Notes: generated by a model from the letters alone, not told the origin. DNA of 53,080 nucleotides from Rhodospirillaceae bacterium (GCA_013204045.1 JABMOQ010000033.1:1-53080); one strand, 5' to 3'; shown: positions 39,865 through 53,080, counted from the first letter of the stretch. Program-made: numbers and translations.

Positions 39865-39914
39865 AAAATGGTGCACCCGGCGAGATTCTAACTCACGACC
39901 TCTGCCTTCGGAGG
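39865..39914 (-). repeat. Left attachment repeat: decayed 3' end of tRNA-Arg(CCG)
   Basis: On the minus strand this 50-bp block reads as a tRNA 3' half: anticodon loop CTCCGAA with CCG, a GGCAG anticodon-stem strand, T-arm GTGAG/CTCGC, acceptor strand CGGGTGC and ACCA. It is followed (to the right) by unrelated sequence, so there is no 5' half. It matches the copy at 44831-44880 at 49 of 50 positions. The difference, at 39889, changes the T-loop. It marks the outer boundary of island 1. Confidence 0.85.
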
Positions 39915-40124
39915 GTGCCAGCTCGAATAAAACGATAGTTAAATCAACGCGTTGTTCGGGTGCTGTTGCGTACAAACACCTGAGACAATGCAGATGGAGT
40001 CCGCTATTAGCCAAAAGCGACCGTCGTTACGACCAAGCGAATAATCTTTAGGGAGGATTTTCAAATAGCGAATTGGATTCTTAGTTGCCCAATAGGACAA
40101 AATGGAGCATTCCCGCGGAGGGGA
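39915..40124. other. Non-coding left end of island 1
   Basis: About 210 bp between the left repeat and the acyltransferase gene. No ORF, RNA gene or strong hairpin was recognised. Confidence 0.4.
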
Positions 40125-40959
40125 TCATTCAGGAAATTCCTCTCTCCATCGCTGAACAATATCGGCTGGAAACCTGACGTGATCAGGTCGGCAGTGATAA
40201 TGCCTTCGCCATGGATAGGCGGGCTTCTTGGTGCCCGTCAATCTGATACGTTCGACACTTCCTTTTAAGGACATGGGGTTACCGGCAGCGATCGTCAAAT
40301 CTGGGACATCACGGTTAACCAAGGTGTGAGATCCGACAAAGGCGTCCCTTCCTATCTTGCAGCCCGGCAGCACCGTAATCCGTGTGCCTAATACAGCATA
40401 ATCACCAACGGTCGGTCCCTTGTCCCCAAGGGATGGGGGATGGGGGTCATTGGTAAAAATACAATACGGAAATATCCAAACAAAATTACCGATTTTGGCA
40501 CCTTGGCATAGGTGCACGTTATTATATGTGAAAACAAAATCGCCGACCGTCAGATGGCCTTCCACCTCTGTAGAGGTTCCAAATATACAGTTATCACCGA
40601 TTTTTGACTGTTCTCTAATAAGGACGTTATGCCCCGTTTTGAATTTGCTACCAATATTTGAACCTACGTAAAAAATTGAGTGAGACCTCAAGTGAGCGTT
40701 ATCGCCAATGACCAAACGATTAGTCCCATCAAATTCGCCAGCTCCAAGATAACAATAGGGCTCTACGACTGAGTTATCCCCCAACTCAACGCCGTCTCCA
40801 ATGGTAACAAAGTCACCAATGGTACAATTTTTGCCGATTACTGCATTTTCTGAGATGTTTCTAGAAATGACAGGCCCCTCTTAAAATATACATTCCCACT
40901 CTATTGCCAGCATAAAATGCGGGCCCGACTATATCAAAAGAATCGCTGCCCCTTGACAT
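40125..40959 (-). pseudogene. Left-handed beta-helix acyltransferase, apparent frameshift near the N-terminus
   Basis: The C-terminal 219 residues form a hexapeptide-repeat acyltransferase (GDNAHLRSHSIFYVGSNIGS, VGDYAVLGTRITVLPGCKIG, IAAGNPMSLKG), probably a trimeric O- or N-acyltransferase. Hexapeptide repeats continue in frame upstream (NISENAVIGKNCTIGDFVTI) to a stop at 40881-40883 with no ATG, GTG or TTG available before the internal TTG at 40784. In the next frame a plausible N-terminus starts at ATG 40959 (MSRGSDSFDIVGPAFYAGNR then MYILRG). Removing one G from the GGGG run at 40874-40878 would join the two frames. It is either a recent frameshift or a sequencing error. It is the last gene of the ACP cassette and probably transfers the acyl group made by it. 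Confidence 0.75.
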
Positions 40960-40998
40960 CAATAAATGCTCGGCGCCAAAGCTTGCCGGAAAAAATAA

Positions 40999-41274
40999 TC
41001 AGGCATTTGCAATGTGCTCAGCAAGGTTCCCGACGACAGCTAGATTTTTATTGTTGAAGTCGTCAATCGATATTTCGACATCATAGTTGGTCTCAATCTC
41101 AAAAAGCAGGTTAATAATATCCAACGAGTCAAACTGGAGGTCTTCAATAAAATGTAGTTCCCCCGAATCCCGGCCCGAAAAATCACCCAAATCATCTTTA
41201 TAAGAAACGGCCATTTTAACTAATTCTCTGGTCAGTTTTTCCTTAGGGTTTTCTGTCATAGCTTCTTCTTTCAT
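40999..41274 (-). CDS. Acyl carrier protein
   Basis: 91 residues, acidic and helical. The phosphopantetheine attachment Ser is in LQFDSLDIINLLFEIE. ATG 41274 is used; ATG 41259 (MTENPKEK) is an alternative. Acyl carrier proteins carry thioester-bound intermediates. This one lies between a KASIII-like gene (4-bp gap) and the acyltransferase, so it is probably a dedicated carrier for the cassette rather than the fatty-acid synthase AcpP. Confidence 0.9.
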   Translation of the reverse strand: MKEEAMTENPKEKLTRELVKMAVSYKDDLGDFSGRDSGELHFIEDLQFDSLDIINLLFEIETNYDVEISIDDFNNKNLAVVGNLAEHIANA

Positions 41275-41278
41275 TCAC

Positions 41279-42235
41279 TTACTTACTCATGATCACTACG
41301 CTTGCCCAAGACAAGCCAACCCCGAACCCCGACATAAAAATCTTTTCGGGACGAGGCCCATTGCTCAAAATGCCCCGACACAACGCGATCGGAATCGTGG
41401 AAGAGGTCGTATTCCCTATATCCGCAATATCGACAAGCACTTTCTCAGTTGGGATATTCAACCTCATAGCCAATGTTTTCAATACGTAACGGCTTGCTTG
41501 GTGAAATATCCATACATCTATATCTGGCGCTGTCAACTCGTTGGCTTCAAGGCATTTTGCCACTGATTTTGGTATCGATGACATGACAAAATTAAAGATG
41601 TTCTGCCCGTTCATATAAAGCGGTTCGATTAAATCGCGCCGCATTCCACTGCCACGAGCGATCAAGGAGTCCGATTTTTTACCGAAGGTACCAAAGTCGA
41701 ATTTACCTAATTTATAAGCCGGATTACGTCCAAGCCAAGTCGCCGAAGAGCCATCGCCAAACAATGGTGCTGTCGCGCGGTCTTTTTGGTCGATAATTTT
41801 TGAGTAGGTTTCTGCCGTTATCAGAATCGCATTGTCGAAACCGTTGGCTTCCATCATTCCCTGAGCAACACTTAAGCCATATACGTAACCCGAACAGCCC
41901 AGATTGATGTCAAGAGCTGCAACCGAAGAAGGTAATCCCAACCGATCCTGAACCAACGCTGATACCTGGGGCAGACAATAATCCGGCGTCTGAGTAACAA
42001 CGATCAACAAGTCAACCGCATTAGGATCGAGGTCAGTTTCATCCAACAACTTTGCCCCAGCAGCGGTCGCTAGATCGGATGTGTATTCATCTTCGGCTGC
42101 AATATGCCGCGAGAGAATACCCAGTTTTTCTCTTATAAACTGCTCATCAAATCCATGGTCCTCAATGACCCTATCATTTGAAACCGCTTCCCCAGGCACA
42201 AAGAACTTGATTTCCTTAATACCGACCGATCCCAT
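41279..42235 (-). CDS. 3-oxoacyl-ACP synthase III (KASIII/FabH)-like condensing enzyme
   Basis: 318 residues of thiolase fold with the full Cys-His-Asn triad: Cys in INLGCSGYVYGLSV, His in IFHQASRYVLKTLA and Asn in DIGNTTSSTIPIAL. FabH-type enzymes condense an acyl-CoA starter with malonyl-ACP. In sugar-modification loci relatives supply unusual acyl chains on a dedicated ACP. It is followed at once by the ACP gene and preceded by the MaoC-like gene. The substrate is unknown. Confidence 0.88.
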   Translation of the reverse strand: MGSVGIKEIKFFVPGEAVSNDRVIEDHGFDEQFIREKLGILSRHIAAEDEYTSDLATAAGAKLLDETDLDPNAVDLLIVVTQTPDYCLPQVSALVQDRLGLPSSVAALDINLGCSGYVYGLSVAQGMMEANGFDNAILITAETYSKIIDQKDRATAPLFGDGSSATWLGRNPAYKLGKFDFGTFGKKSDSLIARGSGMRRDLIEPLYMNGQNIFNFVMSSIPKSVAKCLEANELTAPDIDVWIFHQASRYVLKTLAMRLNIPTEKVLVDIADIGNTTSSTIPIALCRGILSNGPRPEKIFMSGFGVGLSWASVVIMSK

Positions 42236-42321
42236 TATTTATACGCCTCACATTTGGACAAAAAACCAATCAATTGAATATTCTTGATAATTCAAACAAG
42301 AAATCTAAATAAATTCGTCTA

Positions 42322-42741
42322 TTAATTATTTACCAGAATCTTAATAACCATATTCGTATCGGCGACTTGTACATTATTTTGATTAAAGCACTTTGCTTTA
42401 ATTTTTAATGCCTTCATGGACCTTAGCCGCCCGACAACCTCCACCGTCGCGGTGATCACATCGCCCATATAAACAGGGGCTAGGAAGCGAGTATTTTTCT
42501 CCAAGGCGACGACGACAGTTTCCTCGGAGCCAAATGTTTCGACCAGCGCTCCCGCAATCCGGCTTTCAGTTACAAAGCCGTTTGAAATGGCGCTCTTAAA
42601 TCCAAACTTTTTGCCCACCGTGTCATCGAAATGTATCGGGTTGAAATCACCGCTGATTTCAGCAAATTGATTGTTATACTCTATTGTCACCTGACGGGTT
42701 AAAGAACCTTTGTATCCAATGACAAAATCATCGAATTTCAT
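42322..42741 (-). CDS. MaoC-like (hot-dog fold) dehydratase/hydratase
   Basis: 139 residues with the hot-dog hydratase-2 motif FNPIHFDDTVGKKFGFKSAI, in which Asp and His are the usual catalytic pair, and the central FLAPVYMGDVITATVEVVGR strand. MaoC-like proteins hydrate or dehydrate acyl thioesters on CoA or ACP. Here it probably acts on a 3-hydroxyacyl intermediate of the cassette. The gap to the KASIII-like gene is 86 bp and to the HMG-CoA-synthase-like gene 43 bp, all on the same strand. Confidence 0.85.
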   Translation of the reverse strand: MKFDDFVIGYKGSLTRQVTIEYNNQFAEISGDFNPIHFDDTVGKKFGFKSAISNGFVTESRIAGALVETFGSEETVVVALEKNTRFLAPVYMGDVITATVEVVGRLRSMKALKIKAKCFNQNNVQVADTNMVIKILVNN

Positions 42742-42784
42742 GGATCATCATATCCTTTAATAACACATTTTGACGTTAAGTGTT

Positions 42785-43963
42785 TCATACGGATCCGTAT
42801 ATGCGTTTTTCATCTTCGACCCCGATAAACTTGAATGGGCCCGATGCCTTTATTGCTGAAACCTTTTCTTGCGGACTTCCTCCCCGCTCATATATTTCGG
42901 CTAAGCGCTCATAATCCCCAACACTAACTTTATTTCTCGCATCCAGTTGCTCTTGCACATCAAACTTTTTCAATATCTGTTCGCATCCTGGGACAAACTC
43001 GCCTCTGATAAGCACGGCACCACATCCCGAGCCGTAGGAAAACAAGTAACACCCGTCGTAGGCGTCCGTTATCGACGGTTCCTGCTTACGCTCGTGGAAC
43101 TCACCTAACACGCTCATTAAACCCAGCCATACGCTCCCCGTATAAATGTTCCCCACTCTGGAGGCATAGCGAAGGCCCGCAGCGACCTTTTCAAGAAAGC
43201 TCTCTTTCGGTGAGGCATCGTCAAACAACTTGGCAATTCGATGGTAGGTCTGCTGCACTAGCTTTGGATATGGCGCATGAAAAACAAACGCGGCACCCTT
43301 TTTCAGAGTTTCTTGCTGGAAGCAATAGGTCGCCGCATCCGCATAGCATTGCGCTGAAAACATCCCATCCACAATGGGATACTTTTTTTCCAGCGGCTTC
43401 CAAAAATCGTAAACGCTTTTGCTGAAGGAGCTAACCTCTTCTAGCGCCATCAATCTTGGATTGGCGCAAATCAGCATGGCGACAGCGCCCGCCCCCTGCG
43501 TCGGCTCGCCCGCAGATTCCCGCTCATAACGAGCAATATCTGATGCAATAACCAGCGCATATCTGCCTTTTCCTGCCCCCCGGACCCAGTCAAGAGCCGA
43601 GAGAACACCATAAGTCGCCCCGATACAGGCATGCATGATGTCATAGACTCTGCAATTCGGGCCAATCCCAACAAGTTCATGGACATGAGTAGCGGTCGGT
43701 TTCGACTTGTCTTCAGCACTTTCTGTGCCAACGATCAAAAGTCCAATGTCTGACCTAGATATACCGGCTTCATCAATGACTTTATCGGCCGCATTCGCTG
43801 CTAGGACAACAGCATCTTCATCATTTGAGGCAATTGAGATTTCTCTTATTCCAATTCCCTCTGTGTATTTTTTGGGGTCCACACCTCGAACGGTAGCCAA
43901 TTCGTCCAATGCCAGGAAGTGCCCTGGAGTATAGAAAGCAATATGGTCAATCCCGACGTCCAT
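42785..43963 (-). CDS. HMG-CoA synthase-family protein
   Basis: 392 residues, the size of bacterial HMG-CoA synthases. The catalytic residues are visible: Glu in VGTESAEDKSKP, the acyl-binding Cys in DIMHACIGATYGVL and the His in FVFHAPYPKLVQ. The family joins acetyl-CoA (or acetyl-ACP) to a beta-keto thioester to give a beta-branched product. It occurs in mevalonate synthesis and in polyketide beta-branching. No mevalonate genes accompany it. The ACP, KASIII and MaoC neighbours suggest synthesis of a branched acyl group for the acyltransferase at the end of the operon. The start is ATG 43963. Confidence 0.88.
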   Translation of the reverse strand: MDVGIDHIAFYTPGHFLALDELATVRGVDPKKYTEGIGIREISIASNDEDAVVLAANAADKVIDEAGISRSDIGLLIVGTESAEDKSKPTATHVHELVGIGPNCRVYDIMHACIGATYGVLSALDWVRGAGKGRYALVIASDIARYERESAGEPTQGAGAVAMLICANPRLMALEEVSSFSKSVYDFWKPLEKKYPIVDGMFSAQCYADAATYCFQQETLKKGAAFVFHAPYPKLVQQTYHRIAKLFDDASPKESFLEKVAAGLRYASRVGNIYTGSVWLGLMSVLGEFHERKQEPSITDAYDGCYLFSYGSGCGAVLIRGEFVPGCEQILKKFDVQEQLDARNKVSVGDYERLAEIYERGGSPQEKVSAIKASGPFKFIGVEDEKRIYGSV

Positions 43964-44030
43964 TATTTATCCTTTAGGGCGACGAAGCCTGATTTCGGAA
44001 GATCTTGGGTCAAGTCAATATTCGGCATAC

Positions 44031-44325
44031 CTATAATATCCATGACAATGTAGAGGGCAATATGCGCGTATTCTTATTGCCAATAAAGTTGAATCCACCA
44101 CAGTTTCTAGACAGGCGAAGCGCCCTTATTCGTGCACCCTTTTCCGCAAGCTCAAGTATTTTGGCAAGAACTATCGTCTTGGCTTCCGTAATCGACGAAA
44201 AGGATTTCAAGTTCACAATCCAATTTTTTAGCAGTTGCCGTCAGCCGTTTATAAAATGGAACGATATTTTCCGACTCATTGAAAACAGTGCCAACCACGG
44301 ATGGGAGGGATGGCGAGGCGTTCAA
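44031..44325 (-). pseudogene. Frameshifted N-terminal remnant of a GT2 (GtrB/DPM-like) glycosyltransferase
   Basis: Two minus-strand frames together look like the start of a polyprenyl-phosphate glycosyltransferase. The first, from TTG 44325, reads GTVFNESENIVPFYKRL then CELEILFVDYGSQDDS, matching the family VFNESEN and FVDDGSxD motifs, and stops at 44152. The next frame continues LAKILELAEKGARIRALRLS followed by RN, the expected next block. At least one frameshift separates them, and the rest of the enzyme is missing. It sits just upstream of the acyl cassette and suggests the island once carried a lipid-linked sugar transferase. Confidence 0.7.
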
Positions 44326-44419
44326 AACAAGGTCTCTCTAGCGTGACTCAGAAAAGCGACTTTAAGTCATCAATATTTAAAATGACAGTTGTTATAAATC
44401 GTATGTTTTCTTCGTTTCG

Positions 44420-44795
44420 TTGACGAAGACCAAGAACAGAGAAGACCGATCGGATCGTCTTACAGAGTGGGCAAAACAGGTGTTGGCAGGTTTGGACCCG
44501 CAAGAGTCCGGCCCGGTATTCACCTATCGCGGACAGGCTATTAAGTGCGTTAAAAACAACATTCAACAAAGCACGCATACGGACAAAGTTGGAAGATTTC
44601 CGCTTTCACGACCTGAGGCATACGTTCGCCTCACGTCTCGCACAACAGGGCGTTCCTTTGTACGAGATCATGCACCTGACGGGGCACAAGAGCTTCCAGA
44701 TGGTGCAGCGCTATGCGCACCTGGCGCCCGACTTCCAAGAGCGGGCAATCGGGACGCTCAACGCCTATGGCACAGTTTCGGCACAGTCGGCCTAA
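44420..44795 (+). pseudogene. Broken tyrosine recombinase (integrase) C-terminal fragment
   Basis: Two overlapping plus-strand frames carry integrase sequence. The first, from TTG 44420, reads KTKNREDRSDRLTEWAKQVL and VFTYRGQAIKCVKNN. The second, from about 44589, reads EDFRFHDLRHTFASRLAQQ, LTGHKSFQMVQRYAHLAP, which includes the HxxR, H and catalytic Tyr blocks. The N-terminal domains are absent and a frameshift lies near 44570-44590, so it cannot be active. It points at the tRNA-derived repeat 36 bp downstream, and was probably the integrase of island 1. Confidence 0.85.
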
Positions 44796-44830
44796 ACGCC
44801 ATAAGCAAAAATGGCTATAAGTCATTGAAA

Positions 44831-44880
44831 AAAATGGTGCACCCGGCGAGATTCGAACTCACGACCTCTGCCTTCGGAGG
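44831..44880 (-). repeat. Central attachment repeat: 3' end of tRNA-Arg(CCG)
   Basis: On the minus strand this reads as a sound tRNA 3' half (CTCCGAA anticodon loop, GGCAG, T-loop with TTCGAAT, acceptor CGGGTGC, then ACCA). Unrelated sequence follows to the right, so it is not a complete tRNA gene. It repeats 39865-39914 with one mismatch and separates island 1 from island 2. Confidence 0.87.
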
Positions 44881-45003
44881 CAAAAGGAATTTCTGTTATA
44901 TATTGAATTTAAACGATTTTCCATTTTTTTCGTGCTCTCCTGTTTGCGGATTTGCCCTTATTTTGTGGGTGCTACCCAGAGTTCTACGTTCTTTCTGCGT
45001 CCC

Positions 45004-46041
45004 CTACATGCGGTCGGCCATATCCCGAATGTGTTGGTCATTGTGATGGGCATAGACCCGTTCAAGAGTCGGGAAGGACATATTCATGAAGGCAGCGACA
45101 TCGGAAATTTTCTCACCATTTTGGACCAGTAAACTCACGCGCGTATGGCGCAGGGTGTGAGGCGTCACGTCATGAAGCCCGGCTTGTTTGCAGGCGGTGC
45201 GAAAGCCCTTCACGATGCTCTGGACCCTTTTGTAAGGGGCATGCCTTTGGTGGAACAAAAAGGAGCTTTTACCTTTTGAGAAACGGTAATGACGTTGTAG
45301 GTGGGGCAACAGCTTCCTAGGAATTGGAATTTTTGCTCTGCGCTTGTTGGTTTCTTCTTGTCTAGGTTTGTTAAAGTCGATGGTGCCGGAGTTAAAATCA
45401 ATTTGCGACCACTCCAGCTCCATGATCGCGTTGCGTCTCGCGCCGGTATAAAATGCGATCACGATGAACAAACGAAGGGTGAACTTGGAGCGATGTTCTC
45501 GACCGGCGGCTTGTAGAAGTTTTGCCATTTCAGTGCGAGTCAGCCAGCGGTCTTTCGGTTTGCCTCCTTTGGGAACAATGAACTTAGCAATGGGTAAAAC
45601 CCTGTTCATGGAGACCGCATGATTGATTGCTGCCCTCAGACAGGTCAATTCTCTGCGAACGGTACCTTTCGCCCGGGGAGATTGATCCACATAGGCTTTG
45701 ATTGTTTCCTTGTTGACCTTGTCGAGGGTGCCATCTTCCCAAAAATTGAGAATATGATCGATGGCATAGCCAAGGCGGGAGGCTTCTCGGTCTTGTTCGA
45801 CAAAACGGGCATAGTCTTCCAGCACCTGGGCGATTGTCATTTTGTTCGGATTAATAGCCTGGCCGGTCAGCGCGGCGCGTCGTTCTCCGAGGAAAGTTTC
45901 GAGGGCTTCTTCAGCCTCTGCGCGATTTGCCGTGCCCGTTGAACGCTCTTTTTGCTTTCCGTCTGTGTCGATGAAGCGAATGTAATAGTTTTGTTTTTGC
46001 TTGCGCTTGATGATGCGCGGTCCTGTGCCGGGTCGAGACAT
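45004..46041 (-). CDS. int: Tyrosine recombinase (phage-type integrase)
   Basis: 345 residues. An N-terminal SAM-like core-binding domain (about 70-155: NKMTIAQVLEDYARFVEQDR) precedes the catalytic domain. The catalytic Arg is in YTGARRNAIMELEW, the HxxR in TPHTLRHTRVSLL, and the nucleophilic Tyr in LERVYAHHND. It catalyses site-specific integration and excision. It ends 123 bp from the tRNA-Arg repeat at 44831, which is therefore its likely att site. Its 5' end overlaps the excisionase-like gene by 175 bp. Confidence 0.93.
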   Translation of the reverse strand: MSRPGTGPRIIKRKQKQNYYIRFIDTDGKQKERSTGTANRAEAEEALETFLGERRAALTGQAINPNKMTIAQVLEDYARFVEQDREASRLGYAIDHILNFWEDGTLDKVNKETIKAYVDQSPRAKGTVRRELTCLRAAINHAVSMNRVLPIAKFIVPKGGKPKDRWLTRTEMAKLLQAAGREHRSKFTLRLFIVIAFYTGARRNAIMELEWSQIDFNSGTIDFNKPRQEETNKRRAKIPIPRKLLPHLQRHYRFSKGKSSFLFHQRHAPYKRVQSIVKGFRTACKQAGLHDVTPHTLRHTRVSLLVQNGEKISDVAAFMNMSFPTLERVYAHHNDQHIRDMADRM

Positions 46042-46211
46042 GGTTCCACCATATTTGTTTGAATGTATTCATTAATTGCGTCTTTGGGGGCGAAGATATT
46101 TCCACCAATTCGAATGTGGCGAATCAAATTTGAAGAAATCAGGTTGCGAATTCTACGAACAGGCCAGCCGACATGGATCGCTAATTCTTTAGGCGAAAGA
46201 AGCTCTTCCAT
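45867..46211 (-). CDS. Excisionase-like helix-turn-helix protein
   Basis: 114 residues. The N-terminal 55 residues form a winged HTH of the excisionase/MerR-like type (LLSPKELAIHVGWPVRRIRN then IRHIRIGGNIFAPKDAINEY). The remainder is polar and Ser/Lys-rich and overlaps the integrase reading frame in another frame. It may direct excision with Int or regulate int. The long overlap is unusual. The open frame alone would allow a shorter true product, but no earlier stop exists. Confidence 0.75.
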   Translation of the reverse strand: MEELLSPKELAIHVGWPVRRIRNLISSNLIRHIRIGGNIFAPKDAINEYIQTNMVEPCLDPAQDRASSSASKNKTITFASSTQTESKKSVQRARQIAQRLKKPSKLSSENDAPR

Positions 46212-46243: not shown

Positions 46244-46316
46244 TTATTCTGGGTAGAATAAGGTATGAACGAGATAATTAAGTAACATAAACATATTTAT
46301 GGTAACAATTGATACC
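46244..46316. promoter_or_regulatory. Two palindromes between divergent xis-like and XRE genes, candidate operators
   Basis: TTATTCT-GGGT-AGAATAA (46244-46261) is a perfect 7-bp inverted repeat. GGTAACAATTGATACC (46301-46316) is a near-perfect palindrome, with one mismatched pair, centred on CAATTG and ending one base before ATG 46318. Both sit in the divergent promoter region, as expected for binding sites of the XRE-type repressor encoded next door. Confidence 0.5.
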
Positions 46317-46317
46317 A

Positions 46318-46725
46318 ATGTCAATGAAAAGTTCCTCTTTATCCGAACGATTGCACACGGTTCGTAAGCGAACCGGCCTTTCGCAAGCCGATTTTGGGAA
46401 AAAGTTGGGAATTTCTGACAGGGCTTATAAGAACTACGAGTTGGAAATCAGGAAACTGCCGATTGAAGCTGCTAAGCTCATTTGCCATGAGTTCGCCATT
46501 GATATCCGCTGGCTACTGCTGGGGCAGGGGTTTATCGATTCGCAAGCTCTAGGAGATGCTGTTGAAGCAGCGGTTCTCGAAACTAAGGCATTTTTTATGG
46601 AAAATGATGTTCAGATGAACCCGAAACAGGAAGCAAAAATTGTTCGTTTCCTGGTTCAGCAGATCGAGGAAAACGGTTCAATATCTGAAGATATTAAGCG
46701 TAGCTTTTTTGAAGCAATTATTTAA
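46318..46725 (+). CDS. XRE-family HTH regulator
   Basis: About 135 residues. A lambda-repressor-like HTH occupies about residues 8-65 (LHTVRKRTGLSQADFGKKLG, ISDRAYKNYELEIRKLPIEA). The C-terminal half is helical and probably mediates dimerisation (NPKQEAKIVRFLVQQIEENG). ATG 46318 is chosen. ATG 46324 is equally close, and a TTG at 46309 lies within the palindrome. It is divergent from the excisionase-like gene and probably represses the island's integration genes. Confidence 0.87.
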   Translation: MSMKSSSLSERLHTVRKRTGLSQADFGKKLGISDRAYKNYELEIRKLPIEAAKLICHEFAIDIRWLLLGQGFIDSQALGDAVEAAVLETKAFFMENDVQMNPKQEAKIVRFLVQQIEENGSISEDIKRSFFEAII

Positions 46726-47159: not shown

Positions 47160-48218
47160 ATGAGCAAGCGCCCTTCCAAAGGCCCGATCATACGCAACAG
47201 CACGGCGGAGTTTTTGATCTTCATCGGCCAAAGCGGTGATGAGGGTATCGAGGTCCGCTATCAGGACGAAACCATCTGGCTGACGCAGAAGCTGATGGCC
47301 GAGCTGTTCAGTGTCGAGCGGTCCGTTATCACTAAGCATTTGCAAAACATCTTTAAAGACAACGAACTGGATAGTGATTCAGTATGTGCAATTTTTGCAC
47401 ATACTGCCGCCGACGGCAAAATATACGATACGCAGTTTTATAATCTGGACGCCATTATTTCCGTTGGCTACCGGGTTAATTCGGTTCGCGCCACCCAGTT
47501 TCGCCAGTGGGCGACCCCGGTCCTTAGGGAATTCGCTATCAAAGGCTATGTGATGGACAGGAAGCGCCTGGAAAACGGCACCTATCTGGGCGAAGATTAT
47601 TTTGAAAGGCTGCTTGAAGAAATCCGGGAAATCCGCCTGAGCGAACGCCGATTTTATCAGAAGATTACTGATATTTACGCCACCGCCCTAGACTATAACA
47701 ACGACGCCCCAACCACCCGCGACTTTTTTGCCAAGGTACAAAATAAGCTGCATTACGCCATTCATGGTCACACCGCCGCTGAGATAATAAAAAAACGGGC
47801 GAACAGCGACAAACAACACATGGGCCTGACAAGTTGGGACGCGGCTCCGGAAGGTAAAATCCTTAAAACCGATGTTGTCGTGGCGAAAAACTATCTCAGC
47901 AACGACGAACTTGAATCCTTGGGTCGTATCGTCAACGCCTATCTTGATTTAGCCGAGGACCGCGCACACCGCCAAATCCCCATGACCATGGAAGACTGGG
48001 CCAGCCGCCTGGATCGTTTCCTTGAATTCGACGACCGGGAAATACTCACTAACGCCGGGACCATCAGCGCCAAAATAGCCAAAGATCACGCCCAAAACGA
48101 ATTCGAAAAATACCGCCCTCTGCAAGATCGACTGTTTGAATCCGATTTTGACAAAGAAGTTAAGAAGATTGAGAAGGCCTCGAAGGGGCGGGAGAAAGCG
48201 GGCGAAGATGATGAATAG
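47160..48218 (+). CDS. rhuM: RhuM-family virulence protein
   Basis: 352 residues. The N-terminal region has the RhuM signatures IWLTQKLMAELFSVERSVIT, SVCAIFAHTAADGKIYDTQF and NLDAIISVGYRVNSVRATQFR. A helical C-terminal region follows (TTRDFFAKVQNKLHYAIHGH, ending in a Lys/Glu tail). RhuM was named in a Salmonella pathogenicity island and homologues are common on islands. The biochemical function is not established. It starts 36 bp after the small membrane protein and is convergent with the Sel1-caspase gene. Confidence 0.9.
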   Translation: MSKRPSKGPIIRNSTAEFLIFIGQSGDEGIEVRYQDETIWLTQKLMAELFSVERSVITKHLQNIFKDNELDSDSVCAIFAHTAADGKIYDTQFYNLDAIISVGYRVNSVRATQFRQWATPVLREFAIKGYVMDRKRLENGTYLGEDYFERLLEEIREIRLSERRFYQKITDIYATALDYNNDAPTTRDFFAKVQNKLHYAIHGHTAAEIIKKRANSDKQHMGLTSWDAAPEGKILKTDVVVAKNYLSNDELESLGRIVNAYLDLAEDRAHRQIPMTMEDWASRLDRFLEFDDREILTNAGTISAKIAKDHAQNEFEKYRPLQDRLFESDFDKEVKKIEKASKGREKAGEDDE

Positions 48219-48298: not shown

Positions 48299-51085
48299 TC
48301 ATTTTCCAACAACAATCTGCGCCGTCTGCTCACGTCCATAATAACGGCGGGCGTAGTAGGTCAGAGTTTCTTTGAAATACCGGCCAAGCTCATCGTAACC
48401 GACCTTACCATCGCCGTTTCCATAGGGTTTGGCGTCGGCTTCGCCGCTCATGCCTTTGAGGAAGTACTTGGTGAAAAGTCCGCTTGATGAGTCCTGCTCC
48501 CATGAAGCGATCTGGTTGGCTGCACCGGCGGTGATGACGGTTATGTTCGGCGGAATGCCCGTCTCCTTGGCCTTCAGATAAATGGGGGAAGCTTTGGCGA
48601 TGACTGATCCGGATTGGCTGGTTCCAGAGAAACAGGCTTCCAGAACCACGGTCACCGACTTCGCCGGTATCTTGCTCAGGTTATTATATAGCGTCTTCAA
48701 CGAATAACCGTTTAGATCAATGAGCGAGGCTTGGGCATTTGAGGGCACAAGGTAACTGTTTCCCTCTTCCCCTCCGGGCGCTCCGTGGCCGGAGTAGTAA
48801 ACAAAGACGCGCGACTTCCCGGCCTTCACAAAGTTATATAATTGACCCTTGGAATTCGTCTCACTGCCGAACGTGGCAATGAGTTCGGCCTGGCTAGCGT
48901 CTTTCAGAAATATGATGTTCTCTTCTCGAATGCCGAGAGACTGTTTGATGTAATTTTTGATTCCCGCAGCATCGGCATAGGCCGGGATTACATCTGGAAT
49001 ATCTTTTCCCTTTTTATAATCAGCATTGCCGATGATTACGGCTATGTCGTCCGGTTGAGGTTTGGAGGAACGGAACCGAACATTTATGGGTTTTGATGGA
49101 AAGCCGGATGCGATTTTCTTGGGAGGTATTGGTGAGGCTTTAACAACCTTTTTAGGCATTGTAGGAACGAGCAGTGAAGCACTGGCGGTTTGAGAATTTA
49201 CGGTATTCAACTTTTCAAGAAGTTGTTGGGCAGAAAGGTTCCCTTGTTTAGCTGCCAATCGCAACCATTTTTTGGCTTCCTTGAGGTCTTGAAGAACACC
49301 TTGTCCTGCGGCATAGCTGGCCCCGAGTTGTAATTGGGCGTTGGCATACCCTTGGGCGGCAGCTTTGTGAAACCAATTAACCCCCTCGGCATAATCCTGA
49401 GGAATACCTTTGCCCAAGTTATACATAAATCCAAGAACAGACTGAGCCTCTGCATCTCCCTGGGAAGCGGCCTTGCGAAGCCACTTAAACGATTCTTTAT
49501 CATCCTTAGGCACCCCACCAAATCCCATAGAGTACATAGAGGCCAAGAGATTCTGAGAATCTAGATCTCCCTGCTCTGCAGCGAGTAGGGTCCAATTTCT
49601 GAACCCTTCTTCGCTATTCATAATATCCAGTTCGTGAGTGCCGCTAAAATTCATTTCTTGCTTTTCAGCTAGTTGATACCACCTTTCTGCTTCTTTGGCG
49701 TTTTGTGGGACACCGATGCCGTTGTCATACATCAAACCTAGATAGTACTGAGCTTTCGCTACACCTTGATCAGCCGCGAGACGTAGCCATTTGGCGGCCT
49801 CTTTATAATTAATTGTAATTCCTTGTATTCCAATATATCTCACCCCCAAGGAGAAATGAGCATTAGCGTAACTCTGATCAGCAGCTTTAAGGTACCATTT
49901 CAGAGCCTCGGCATGATCTTGGGGGGCTCCCAAGCCTCTATCGTACATAAACCCAAGTTGTAATTGCGCTTCTGCATCACCCTGCTTGGCGGCCTTGCGA
50001 TACCAATTAATTGCCTTTGCAGAATCCCAATGAACACCAATGCCCCATTTGTACATCATCCCAAGTTGGGATTGGGCCATAACATATCCCAGCTCAGCTA
50101 ATGGTCTGAAAACCTTTAATGCCGAGTCGTAATCTTTCTTAACAAATGCATCAAAGCCCTTTTGGAAAGCAGAAAGCATTACGCCGGGGTTCACTTCATC
50201 AAATGCTTTTTGCGAAGGAATGTGCCCTTGTTCAGCGGATTTCCGGTACCATTTTACAGCCTCGGCATGATCTTGGGGGAGCCCTCGTCCCGTTTCGTAT
50301 TTCTTACCAAGATAGTACTGAGCGTCCAGGTCGCCCTGTTCAGCTGCCTTGCGGCACCATTTGACTGCTTCTGTGTCATCATCAAGAAAATACATTCTAC
50401 AAAGGTAAGATTGGGCAGAAGAAATTCCCTGTTTAGCAGCTAGCTGCATCCATTCACGGGCTTTGACGTGTCCAAATTCTGCTGCTTCTCGTATAAGTTT
50501 GACGGCCTTTTCTTTATCTTGGGGAAATCCCCGTCCCTCATTGAACATCAAACCCATAGTGTACTGGGCTTTGAGTTTCCACTTTACTTCTTGGAGCAGC
50601 CTCATGGCTTCCTTGTCATTTTTGGGAACACCTCGTCCTTCAAAATACATAACCCCAAGATTGGCTTTTGCATCAACATTCCCTTGTTTTTCTGCCAACA
50701 TGTACCATTTGGCGGCTTCCTTATAATCTTTAGGAATACCAGGAACACCATCCTCGTATATTGTGCCCAGATTGTTCTGGGCATTAACGTTTCCCTGATT
50801 TGCGGCTAACCGAAACCACTTTATGGCTACTTTAATATCTTTTGTGAATGCTTCTGTTTTACGGGGTACACCACGCCCGTTTGAGTACAATACACCAAGA
50901 CGGTTCTGTGCATCGGTATCTCCTTGTTCCGCCAGTTGCTCCCACTTTTTCAATGCAGTCGCATAATCCTCCTTTGTTAATTCAGCAGATGAAACTGGGA
51001 ATACAACCAACAAGGAAAGCAAAAAAGTGAGAAAGAACTTTCGTTTCTTAAGAACCAAAAATACGTGTATGAACATCATCGTCAC
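48299..51085 (-). CDS. Secreted Sel1-repeat protein with C-terminal caspase-like protease domain
   Basis: 928 residues. A signal peptide (about 1-34, hydrophobic FFLTFLLSLLVVFPVSSA) is followed by about 14-16 Sel1/TPR-like repeats (about 36-640; for example GDLDAQYYLGKKYETGRGLP), then a linker and a caspase-like (peptidase C14) domain from about 690. The catalytic His is in FVYYSGHGAPGG and the Cys in VLEACFSGTSQ (about residue 818). Near the end NGDGKVGYDEL resembles an EF-hand loop, although its first acidic position is not Asp. The Sel1 array probably binds partner proteins and the caspase domain cleaves after activation. It is last in the cyclase/caspase operon. Confidence 0.88.
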   Translation of the reverse strand: MTMMFIHVFLVLKKRKFFLTFLLSLLVVFPVSSAELTKEDYATALKKWEQLAEQGDTDAQNRLGVLYSNGRGVPRKTEAFTKDIKVAIKWFRLAANQGNVNAQNNLGTIYEDGVPGIPKDYKEAAKWYMLAEKQGNVDAKANLGVMYFEGRGVPKNDKEAMRLLQEVKWKLKAQYTMGLMFNEGRGFPQDKEKAVKLIREAAEFGHVKAREWMQLAAKQGISSAQSYLCRMYFLDDDTEAVKWCRKAAEQGDLDAQYYLGKKYETGRGLPQDHAEAVKWYRKSAEQGHIPSQKAFDEVNPGVMLSAFQKGFDAFVKKDYDSALKVFRPLAELGYVMAQSQLGMMYKWGIGVHWDSAKAINWYRKAAKQGDAEAQLQLGFMYDRGLGAPQDHAEALKWYLKAADQSYANAHFSLGVRYIGIQGITINYKEAAKWLRLAADQGVAKAQYYLGLMYDNGIGVPQNAKEAERWYQLAEKQEMNFSGTHELDIMNSEEGFRNWTLLAAEQGDLDSQNLLASMYSMGFGGVPKDDKESFKWLRKAASQGDAEAQSVLGFMYNLGKGIPQDYAEGVNWFHKAAAQGYANAQLQLGASYAAGQGVLQDLKEAKKWLRLAAKQGNLSAQQLLEKLNTVNSQTASASLLVPTMPKKVVKASPIPPKKIASGFPSKPINVRFRSSKPQPDDIAVIIGNADYKKGKDIPDVIPAYADAAGIKNYIKQSLGIREENIIFLKDASQAELIATFGSETNSKGQLYNFVKAGKSRVFVYYSGHGAPGGEEGNSYLVPSNAQASLIDLNGYSLKTLYNNLSKIPAKSVTVVLEACFSGTSQSGSVIAKASPIYLKAKETGIPPNITVITAGAANQIASWEQDSSSGLFTKYFLKGMSGEADAKPYGNGDGKVGYDELGRYFKETLTYYARRYYGREQTAQIVVGK

Positions 51086-51097
51086 TCCCTTGCTGAT

Positions 51098-51451
51098 TCA
51101 CTGCGATTTTTTCGCACTTACTATTTCAAGAGCCTCACTGTGAGTGCCGACTTGCCTGCCCGTGTTGGATAACTTGACAAAATCAGTGTGCTTACAATTC
51201 TCGCAATACAGCTTGAAGGCGAGTGTGAATCCGTTTTTTGCTTTCTTTTTAAATTCTGAGTTATATGAGTTCTCTGGAGACTCTTCCTTTATCCCGTATT
51301 CAAGAATACGCATGATGTGCTTATCCGAACACTTCGGACAGAAAAAGTAAAAATAATCAGTGTCTGTAGCGCCAGTTAACCCTCCATATTCTGCGGCTTC
51401 TAATCCGCAGTAAGCCTTGCCATTATTAAATTGTGACATATTTCGTTTCAT
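51098..51451 (-). CDS. Small zinc-ribbon protein of unknown function
   Basis: 117 residues with two CxxC pairs, YFFCPKCSDKHIM and KLYCENCKHTDF, which should form a zinc ribbon. The spacing between the pairs is long (about 45 residues). It lies 12 bp before the Sel1-caspase start and 11 bp after the 112-aa gene, in the same operon. No family was recognised. Confidence 0.65.
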   Translation of the reverse strand: MKRNMSQFNNGKAYCGLEAAEYGGLTGATDTDYFYFFCPKCSDKHIMRILEYGIKEESPENSYNSEFKKKAKNGFTLAFKLYCENCKHTDFVKLSNTGRQVGTHSEALEIVSAKKSQ

Positions 51452-51462
51452 AGCTTTTCCAG

Positions 51463-51801
51463 TTATTTTTTCAACACCGTAACGACAACATCCCGTTCAT
51501 TAGGATTGCCATCGACATCTTTAACCGTCTCGGCGTAGGTTCCATCGCGCAACTGCAAGGCGGCTTCTTCCGGCGTGATCAGCCATTCGTAAAGGCCGAA
51601 ATATTCTCCACATAGCCAACTCCCCTTGAAAACCCTACCAGAGTTATAACCTAAAAAAGTGAGGCTCTCATCAAGTTTATACAACCATGGGAAACCCAAA
51701 GAGAATACCTCCTGAGTAGGATACGGTTTGGAAAACGTTTTATTCCATGGGGGGTGCTTTTTGAAACTTGTTGTGACCCGATGGCTAAAATGAGAACTCA
51801 C
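51463..51801 (-). CDS. 112-aa protein of unknown function
   Basis: 112 residues from GTG 51801, aromatic-rich in the middle (SLGFPWLYKL, GLYEWLITPEEAALQLRDG), with no signal peptide or known motif. It sits 8 bp after the cyclase-like gene, with AGGAAAA about 13 bases upstream of the start. It is a probable operon member of unknown function. Confidence 0.6.
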   Translation of the reverse strand: MSSHFSHRVTTSFKKHPPWNKTFSKPYPTQEVFSLGFPWLYKLDESLTFLGYNSGRVFKGSWLCGEYFGLYEWLITPEEAALQLRDGTYAETVKDVDGNPNERDVVVTVLKK

Positions 51802-51809
51802 TTTTCGGG

Positions 51810-52565
51810 TTATTTTCCTGCAATTAATCTTTGGGTTTCAGAAACCCATTCGTCCGATACGTTATTTTTATGAATATGAATATAATTGGTTAACTGCTTT
51901 TCAAGCAGCTTTGCAGGCACATGCAAACTTTCAGTACCTCCTCGCAGACATCCCAATAAGTCTTCAACCATAGGCAATTGACAGTGAACCCAATCAATCT
52001 GCAAGGCTTCCTCTGATTGTCGAAGGATTGACACACCCTCGCTTGGCAAAAATCTGTCCAAACTGGCGTCCACGAATAACAGTGGTCCTTTTGGTCCTTT
52101 TGATTGCAGTTTGAAGGGATTTATTAGGGCGCTTCCCATAACTGGAATTAATGTCATAAGTCCATCACCAATTGCAACTGAACGCTGGCGAAAGGACTTG
52201 TCCCTTGTTATTTCTGTGGGAAGACACCCCGTGATATCGGCAAAATCGCCAGTGGAAATTCCCGCTCGGCAAACACCCCCACCTTCACGACCTCTGAGCA
52301 GCATCGATTGCATAAGCGATACGGCTATTGAAAGAGGAAGATTTAAACTATTCTTTGAAAAATAGGATAAAATCAGAAAACCGTCTCCGAACTGGTGGAT
52401 AAACAAACGTTCCGGATCAGTGAAATATTTGCCGATTTTGAACAGGTCACCTGCTAAGCACCCAAGGGAAAACAGAGCATCAGAGGGATTTCGGCTATAC
52501 CGATGGGAAAACCCCTCAATGTCTATATATAGTCCCCATCTGTCTTCCATCCTGTTTCCACTCAT
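51810..52565 (-). CDS. Divergent class III nucleotidyl-cyclase-like protein
   Basis: About 251 residues. The first metal-ligand region of class III cyclases is visible as LYIDIEGFSHRY and the second as HQFGDGFLILSYF. A later VCRAGISTGDFADI resembles the GxxxG strand before the substrate-binding part, and SALINPFKLQSKGPKGPLLF fits the usual GPALxxAYxLE segment. Family cyclases make cAMP, cGMP, cUMP or cCMP. The product here is unknown. It begins 26 bp after the caspase-like gene. ATG 52565 is preferred, with GGAAAG just upstream, over TTG 52586. No transmembrane segment or sensor domain is seen. Confidence 0.65.
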   Translation of the reverse strand: MSGNRMEDRWGLYIDIEGFSHRYSRNPSDALFSLGCLAGDLFKIGKYFTDPERLFIHQFGDGFLILSYFSKNSLNLPLSIAVSLMQSMLLRGREGGGVCRAGISTGDFADITGCLPTEITRDKSFRQRSVAIGDGLMTLIPVMGSALINPFKLQSKGPKGPLLFVDASLDRFLPSEGVSILRQSEEALQIDWVHCQLPMVEDLLGCLRGGTESLHVPAKLLEKQLTNYIHIHKNNVSDEWVSETQRLIAGK

Positions 52566-52590
52566 GAAACTTTCCAACAAGTGCAAATAC

Positions 52591-53080
52591 TTACCACCTC
52601 ACCAACACCCTCTCAGCATCGCCCTGAAGCTCCGGCGTCTGGTTGCGTTGGATGCGTGAGACATTTGCCTGCACGTACTGGTGCAGTTCTCCTGCGGTGA
52701 TTTTCTGGTCGTTGTTGTTGTCCGCCGGGCCTTCCATCCCCTTCATAAGCCAGTAACTGAACAGGCCGTGTTCAACTTCTGGCAGGAGTTTGGCTGTCTG
52801 GTCCATGCCAGCAGCCGAGATCAAGGTGAAACCTGAAGGCACGTCCTGCTGTTTCGGTGACAGAAGAATCGGGCGACTGGCTAACAGAGCTTCATCAGTT
52901 CTGGATGTTCCGCTGTAACAAGTATCAAGAAAGACGGTAACCGATCTTGGCTTGGCGTCGGCGATGCTCTTGAACAGGTCTGAGCGCAGAATGGACGTTC
53001 TGTTCAACAACTGTGGCATGCCGCTATGTGGCAGCAAGTATAGTTCATTGCCGTCATCCGAACCCAGACCGTGACCAGCA
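52591..53080 (-). CDS. Caspase-like protease with EF-hand-like loop (partial, runs off the window)
   Basis: The visible 3' part, about 163 residues, continues upstream beyond the window edge. The catalytic His is in AGHGLGSDDGNELY and the Cys in VTVFLDTCYSGTSRT. A p10-like segment follows (SGFTLISAAGMDQTAKLLPE), then DNNNDQKITAGE, which fits an EF-hand loop (acidic positions 1, 5 and 12, Ile at 8). It is a paralogue of the caspase domain in the 928-aa protein but ends without Sel1 repeats. It lies immediately upstream of the cyclase-like gene. Whether it has a signal peptide or sensor domain is outside the window. Confidence 0.85.
   Translation of the reverse strand, partial: AGHGLGSDDGNELYLLPHSGMPQLLNRTSILRSDLFKSIADAKPRSVTVFLDTCYSGTSRTDEALLASRPILLSPKQQDVPSGFTLISAAGMDQTAKLLPEVEHGLFSYWLMKGMEGPADNNNDQKITAGELHQYVQANVSRIQRNQTPELQGDAERVLVRW

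Follow-up and report, generated by a model that had tools for sequence, protein, structure and literature searches.

A candidate sigma-linked envelope caspase operon with a cyclase-like gene on an integrative mobilizable element at tRNA-Arg(CCG)

Introduction

What a nucleotidyl-cyclase-like gene does between two caspase-like protease genes is the question raised by the end of the DNA analysed here. The window, 53,080 nucleotides in its whole length, is the entire contig C136 of a Rhodospirillaceae bacterium (GCA_013204045.1 JABMOQ010000033.1:1-53080), part of a 2.68 Mb genome. An earlier note on this sequence had described an island-borne operon at 48299-53080 and offered two readings of it, an immune system following the logic of Pycsar and CBASS and a competing role at the envelope. 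The roles of bacterial caspases are mostly unknown, and the locus connects them with what may be an envelope stress switch, carried by transferable DNA. Its cyclase-like protein leads to a family that is spread over phages and plasmids, is named in none of the libraries searched, and has a chemistry that is directly testable.

Results

Five open reading frames on one strand make up the gene group.
48299-51085, minus strand: Sel1-caspase (caspase 2), with an N-terminal signal peptide (by eye), a C-terminal caspase domain, and GHG and EACFSG dyad motifs
51098-51451, minus strand: 117-aa protein with two CxxC pairs, zinc-ribbon-like
51463-51801, minus strand: probable 112-aa protein of unknown kind, from coding statistics, with a GTG start
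51810-52586, minus strand: class III nucleotidyl-cyclase-like protein, 258 aa, with the likely start ATG at about 52565
52591-53080, minus strand: C-terminal part of caspase 1, the remainder lying on contig C4 (L038:1-1331, minus strand)

All five frames are intact, the gaps between them are about 8-26 bp, and ribosome-binding-like sequences are present, which bears out the tight packing that had been described. Codon statistics favoured the annotated frame for both small ORFs. The CxxC pairs of the 117-aa protein resemble a zinc ribbon, as had been proposed (weak Pfam match under the cut-off), and a plasmid search gave no homologue of it; Pfam, NCBIfam and further homologue searches with the 112-aa protein gave none either. 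Because no homologue of either was found, the two small proteins of the earlier note are retained as products of probable genes only.

The frame of caspase 1 is cut at 53080 because the window, a whole contig, ends there, and for the same reason 48299-53080 omits an ECF sigma/anti-sigma pair and mobilisation genes. The terminal 140 bases of the window recur at the start of contig C4 of the same genome; the overlap between C136 and C4 is exactly 141 bp, as k-mer assemblers leave. The join that we infer from this assembly overlap keeps the caspase 1 frame continuous and gives a 559-aa protein with a LAGC lipobox, Sel1 repeats, a weak Ig-like stretch, and a caspase domain. The first gene, described earlier as a caspase-like protease, is therefore still read as a caspase, not a small one but the truncated end of a Sel1-repeat lipoprotein-caspase that is finished on C4.

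The Sel1-caspase matched Pfam Peptidase_C14 (E 1e-10) and, over many repeats, Sel1 (E 2e-108), confirming its earlier description; Sel1 belongs to the domains most often joined to bacterial metacaspases (PMC3501461). The frame at 52591-53079 matched the NCBIfam model caspase_w_EACC1 (E 6e-14, under the model cut-off), which caspase 2 also matched below the cut-off. Pfam caspase matches above the cut-off were obtained for both proteins, caspase 1 as completed, and in each the GHG and C(Y/F)SG motifs are preserved. By these matches both are assigned to the bacterial caspases (Peptidase_C14) with a His-Cys dyad, in line with the two caspase-like proteases first reported. Their caspase domains are 32% identical (E 9e-38) and their Sel1 repeats also align, indicating that the two are paralogous. 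A caspase search of IMG/VR returned none.

Judged by eye, N-terminal export signals occur in both caspases, and the cyclase-like protein has none. Both caspases are thus probably exported, caspase 1 as a lipoprotein and caspase 2 to the periplasm, which supports the envelope role that the earlier note had set beside defence and argues against a cytosolic messenger switch of the Pycsar or CBASS type.

On C4, an ECF sigma gene lies divergent to the caspase operon (Pfam Sigma70_r2, E 1e-13, and r4_2, E 1e-11, above the cut-off). Adjoining it is a gene for a membrane anti-sigma-like protein, with domain matches to zf-HC2 (E 0.04) and DUF3379 (E 3e-4) and an N-terminal third that resembles proteins annotated as anti-sigma factors next to sigma genes; these weak domain hits suggest that it is a membrane anti-sigma factor. 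A search of the intergenic stretch that separates the operon from the divergent ECF gene gave no convincing ECF promoter. That stretch (L038:1332-1578) contains an inverted repeat, GAATACGGC/GCCGTATTC, whose arms are separated by about 115 bp.

Among relatives of the anti-sigma protein in the phylum, 20 ECF loci were read, and at one of them a caspase gene lay some 5 kb off, within another gene group. We also surveyed 59 caspase loci from 56 genomes of the same class, and an ECF gene was near only one of them; the sigma-caspase link proposed here consequently rests on adjacency and distant precedent. Operons of sigma-70 factors with metacaspases are on record from Myxococcus, Anaeromyxobacter, Haliangium, Sorangium, Ralstonia and Fibrobacter, as are operons with more than one metacaspase (PMC3501461).

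The surroundings of the operon are those of a mobile element.
39865-39915, no strand assigned: outer att-like repeat, a copy of the 3' part of tRNA-Arg(CCG), 42/51 identical to C4 6376-6426, with exact 15- and 17-base stretches
44831-44881, no strand assigned: inner att-like repeat, marking the integrase side of the island and sharing 42 of 51 bases with the tRNA-Arg copy
45004-46041, minus strand: tyrosine integrase (Pfam Phage_integrase, E 1e-21; PHROG integrase, E 1e-59)
45867-46211, minus strand: excisionase-like HTH protein, overlapping the integrase frame (PHROG 66 excisionase/regulator, E 2e-7)
46309-46725, plus strand: HTH_3 regulator (Pfam HTH_3, E 1.5e-8)
47160-48218, plus strand: RhuM-family protein (Pfam Virulence_RhuM, E 9e-111)
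C4 6380-6456: tRNA-Arg(CCG), the other end of the island

Past the sigma pair, C4 encodes a DUF5338 protein, a relaxase (E 6e-33), a NikA-like protein (E 5e-14) and a ParA-like ATPase, and beyond the last of these the GC content is back to about 60%. From 44830 to the tRNA, the element measures 14,536 bp in the joined C136-C4 sequence and contains the integrase, the excisionase-like gene, the HTH regulator, RhuM, the caspase operon and the sigma pair. With an integrase, att-like repeats at a tRNA gene and a relaxase, it has the make-up of an integrative mobilizable element, so that the operon is island-borne, as had been claimed. The stretch at 39865-44830, between the att-like repeats, is low in GC. 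By eye, its genes include ketoacyl-synthase III-like, MaoC-like and acyl-carrier ones; with an integrase remnant at 44589-44795, it resembles an earlier insertion next to the island that used the same tRNA.

The cyclase-like protein gave no match in Pfam, NCBIfam, PHROG or PADLOC and nothing but one chance match among PDB sequences. Its nearest relative, 37-38% identical, is encoded by a Neomarinimicrobiota MAG (L003), where no caspase adjoins it; tblastn searches of plasmids and phages with both proteins returned none. A wider family was recognised by a motif pattern (IDILGF / FSDSIVIS / RGGIS / FGPAM-AY-LE-YPRI) and was then tested. The pattern led to nine viral contigs (L149-L157), and members were collected from plasmids (L158-L165), on which they are annotated as hypothetical, and from chromosomes (L166-L177). 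Searched against Pfam, NCBIfam and PADLOC, the wider family gave no convincing match. The member at L149 is apparently fused to TPR/Sel1-like repeats (by eye).

When the window/L003 pair was compared with the wider phage and plasmid family by hhalign, the match reached 96% (P 1.5e-9, score 68.6), against a score of 9.6 for the reversed control and 20.3 for the best of 60 shuffles. The wider family in turn matched the PF00211 cyclases in a profile comparison run without a shuffled control (92%, P 6e-7), and the best PDB sequence matches of its profile were adenylate and guanylate cyclases (E 0.1-0.5). Direct profile comparison with class III cyclases was marginal (P 0.025, score 20.9 versus 20.3 for the best shuffled). 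Two fold models were of low confidence (pLDDT 42); class III cyclases ranked first in the Foldseek results of each, with E values no better than 0.01, and a uridylate cyclase (8jsz) was among the top matches of one. Taken together, the transitive profile link and the Foldseek lists argue, indirectly but consistently, for homology with the class III nucleotidyl cyclase superfamily, as first proposed.

Relative to the wider family, the two metal-binding Asp positions and the RGGIS-like and GPA-AY-LE-like motifs align, whereas the window protein and its L003 relative form a divergent branch with FGDG for FSDS, GP-GP for YPRI, and an insertion before the GSAL motif. The metal-binding positions, D22 and D68, are invariant in nine aligned relatives, and through them the protein probably binds a nucleotide. 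At the position of the transition-state Arg (four after N156), where the alignment is less certain, the window protein has Leu and the relatives have no Arg. Because the canonical catalytic Arg is apparently missing, the protein is likelier a nucleotide sensor or an atypical enzyme than a canonical cyclase.

The earlier proposal counted on relatives of the cyclase-like gene lying beside caspase genes. Across 30 loci of the cyclase-like family, a set that includes one duplicate pair and some short or broken loci, none had a caspase or an ECF gene in reach, so the pairing looks peculiar to the island. The family was likewise absent from all 59 caspase loci of the class, 12 of which hold more than one caspase. 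A pairing of this cyclase-like protein with caspases, an arrangement called unfamiliar in the earlier note, is accordingly found at no other locus examined, and conservation speaks against a new cyclase-caspase immune system.

An ordinary class III cyclase was present at 6 of the 59 caspase loci (L103, L105, L119, L125, L129 and L148, the caspase-cyclase stretches of the first two being L103:5889-9911 and L105:5652-9912) where 1.9 were expected (P 0.013, a whole-locus count in which L103 and L105 share a genus). A 2-kb adjacency count had been selected post hoc, and two of the six loci come from one genus, so this is the one value quoted. The caspases of this class therefore adjoin class III cyclases somewhat above chance, and the theme of a cyclase with a caspase is not baseless. 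Four of the six, on Pfam evidence, are cyclases of the transmembrane CHASE2 type, and L105 by eye closely resembles one of these four; the cyclase-like protein of the window is of another type than these neighbours. No paper naming CHASE2, adenylate cyclase and caspase together was found in the literature searched.

These counts bear on the alternative that the operon came together by chance: an orphan cyclase-like gene, unrelated to the caspases, and two small genes would have interrupted tandem genes for exported caspases, and nothing in their functions would link them. The paralogous caspases do flank three other genes, and neither the 30 family loci nor the locus of the nearest relative places a caspase alongside; the short gaps, the ribosome-binding-like sequences and the five intact frames nevertheless suggest a single transcript, and we judge such an assembly unlikely.

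Defence systems were then compared. PADLOC gave no match for the cyclase-like, small and truncated caspase proteins, and for the cyclase-like protein no PycC-type match up to E 1; for the Sel1-caspase the matches were limited to a generic caspase model and to PtuA, the latter driven by the repeats. A Pfam scan of the island proteins found no TIR, no TM/TIR effector and no known cyclic-nucleotide-binding domain. Known Pycsar effectors are PycTM and PycTIR (PMC11224242), and the locus appears to fall outside Pycsar on both counts, the PycC-type model and the PycTM/PycTIR partner. A system of the Pycsar or CBASS type, its caspase effectors switched on by a cyclic nucleotide, could appeal to the class III cyclase-like protein with both metal Asp residues and to the uridylate cyclase matched by the low-confidence model. 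Since the catalytic Arg position is not conserved, the effectors are predicted to lie outside the cytosol, and PADLOC gave no model match, we consider this part of the earlier proposal very improbable.

A broader anti-phage or anti-mobile-element module would work otherwise: infection would hurt the envelope or alter a nucleotide pool; the ECF switch, the cyclase-like protein or both would sense this, and the caspases would kill the cell or block entry. The operon is cargo of a mobile island, and on some plasmids wider-family genes adjoin defence genes, standing directly after dsr1 or directly after an AbiE pair; at L166, a DNA-methyltransferase-like gene is near (by eye). Caspase-like effectors activated by a nucleotide also exist, in type IV Thoeris (PMC12847820). 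The PADLOC results, the export signals and the absence of the pairing from the relatives' loci count against it, and we hold the module to be rather unlikely.

Discussion

Our leading interpretation, to which we give about even credence, is that the locus is a sigma-linked envelope caspase operon carried as cargo by an integrative mobilizable element at tRNA-Arg(CCG). As sigma-metacaspase operons are already known (PMC3501461), what would be new is a mobile variant with an orphan cyclase-like gene. The membrane anti-sigma factor would hold the ECF sigma factor until an envelope signal frees it; the freed sigma factor would then direct expression of the divergent operon and so of the two caspase-like paralogues, a lipoprotein and a periplasmic protease, whose substrates may be proteins of the envelope or outside the cell. 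The cyclase-like protein would remain cytosolic, probably as a nucleotide-binding partner or a passenger. A mobile immunity or death module of a new kind, in which the membrane ECF switch and a catalytically unusual cyclase-like nucleotide sensor jointly control the two exported caspases, is a further reading that we regard as quite unlikely.

Among known systems, Pycsar shares with the locus a class III cyclase-type protein and a mobile context, but here PADLOC found no match, no PycTM/TIR partner was found and the caspases appear to be exported. Type IV Thoeris, which joins a TIR protein with a caspase-like protease, likewise has a nucleotide-linked protein near a caspase-like protease; no TIR was found at our locus, whose caspases carry Sel1 repeats and export signals. 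The EACC1/VMAP caspase and cNMP-cyclase conflict systems (PMC7159879) combine caspase and cyclase domains in related systems, and caspase_w_EACC1 was matched below its cut-off, whereas no EACC1, MoxR, vWA or VMAP component occurred among the island proteins scanned by Pfam and NCBIfam. In the sigma-70-metacaspase operons (PMC3501461), as here, metacaspase genes adjoin a sigma-70-type factor and more than one metacaspase may share an operon; the present locus differs in that its sigma gene is divergent rather than in the same operon, and in having a putative anti-sigma factor, export signals, a cyclase-like gene and a mobilizable element as its carrier.
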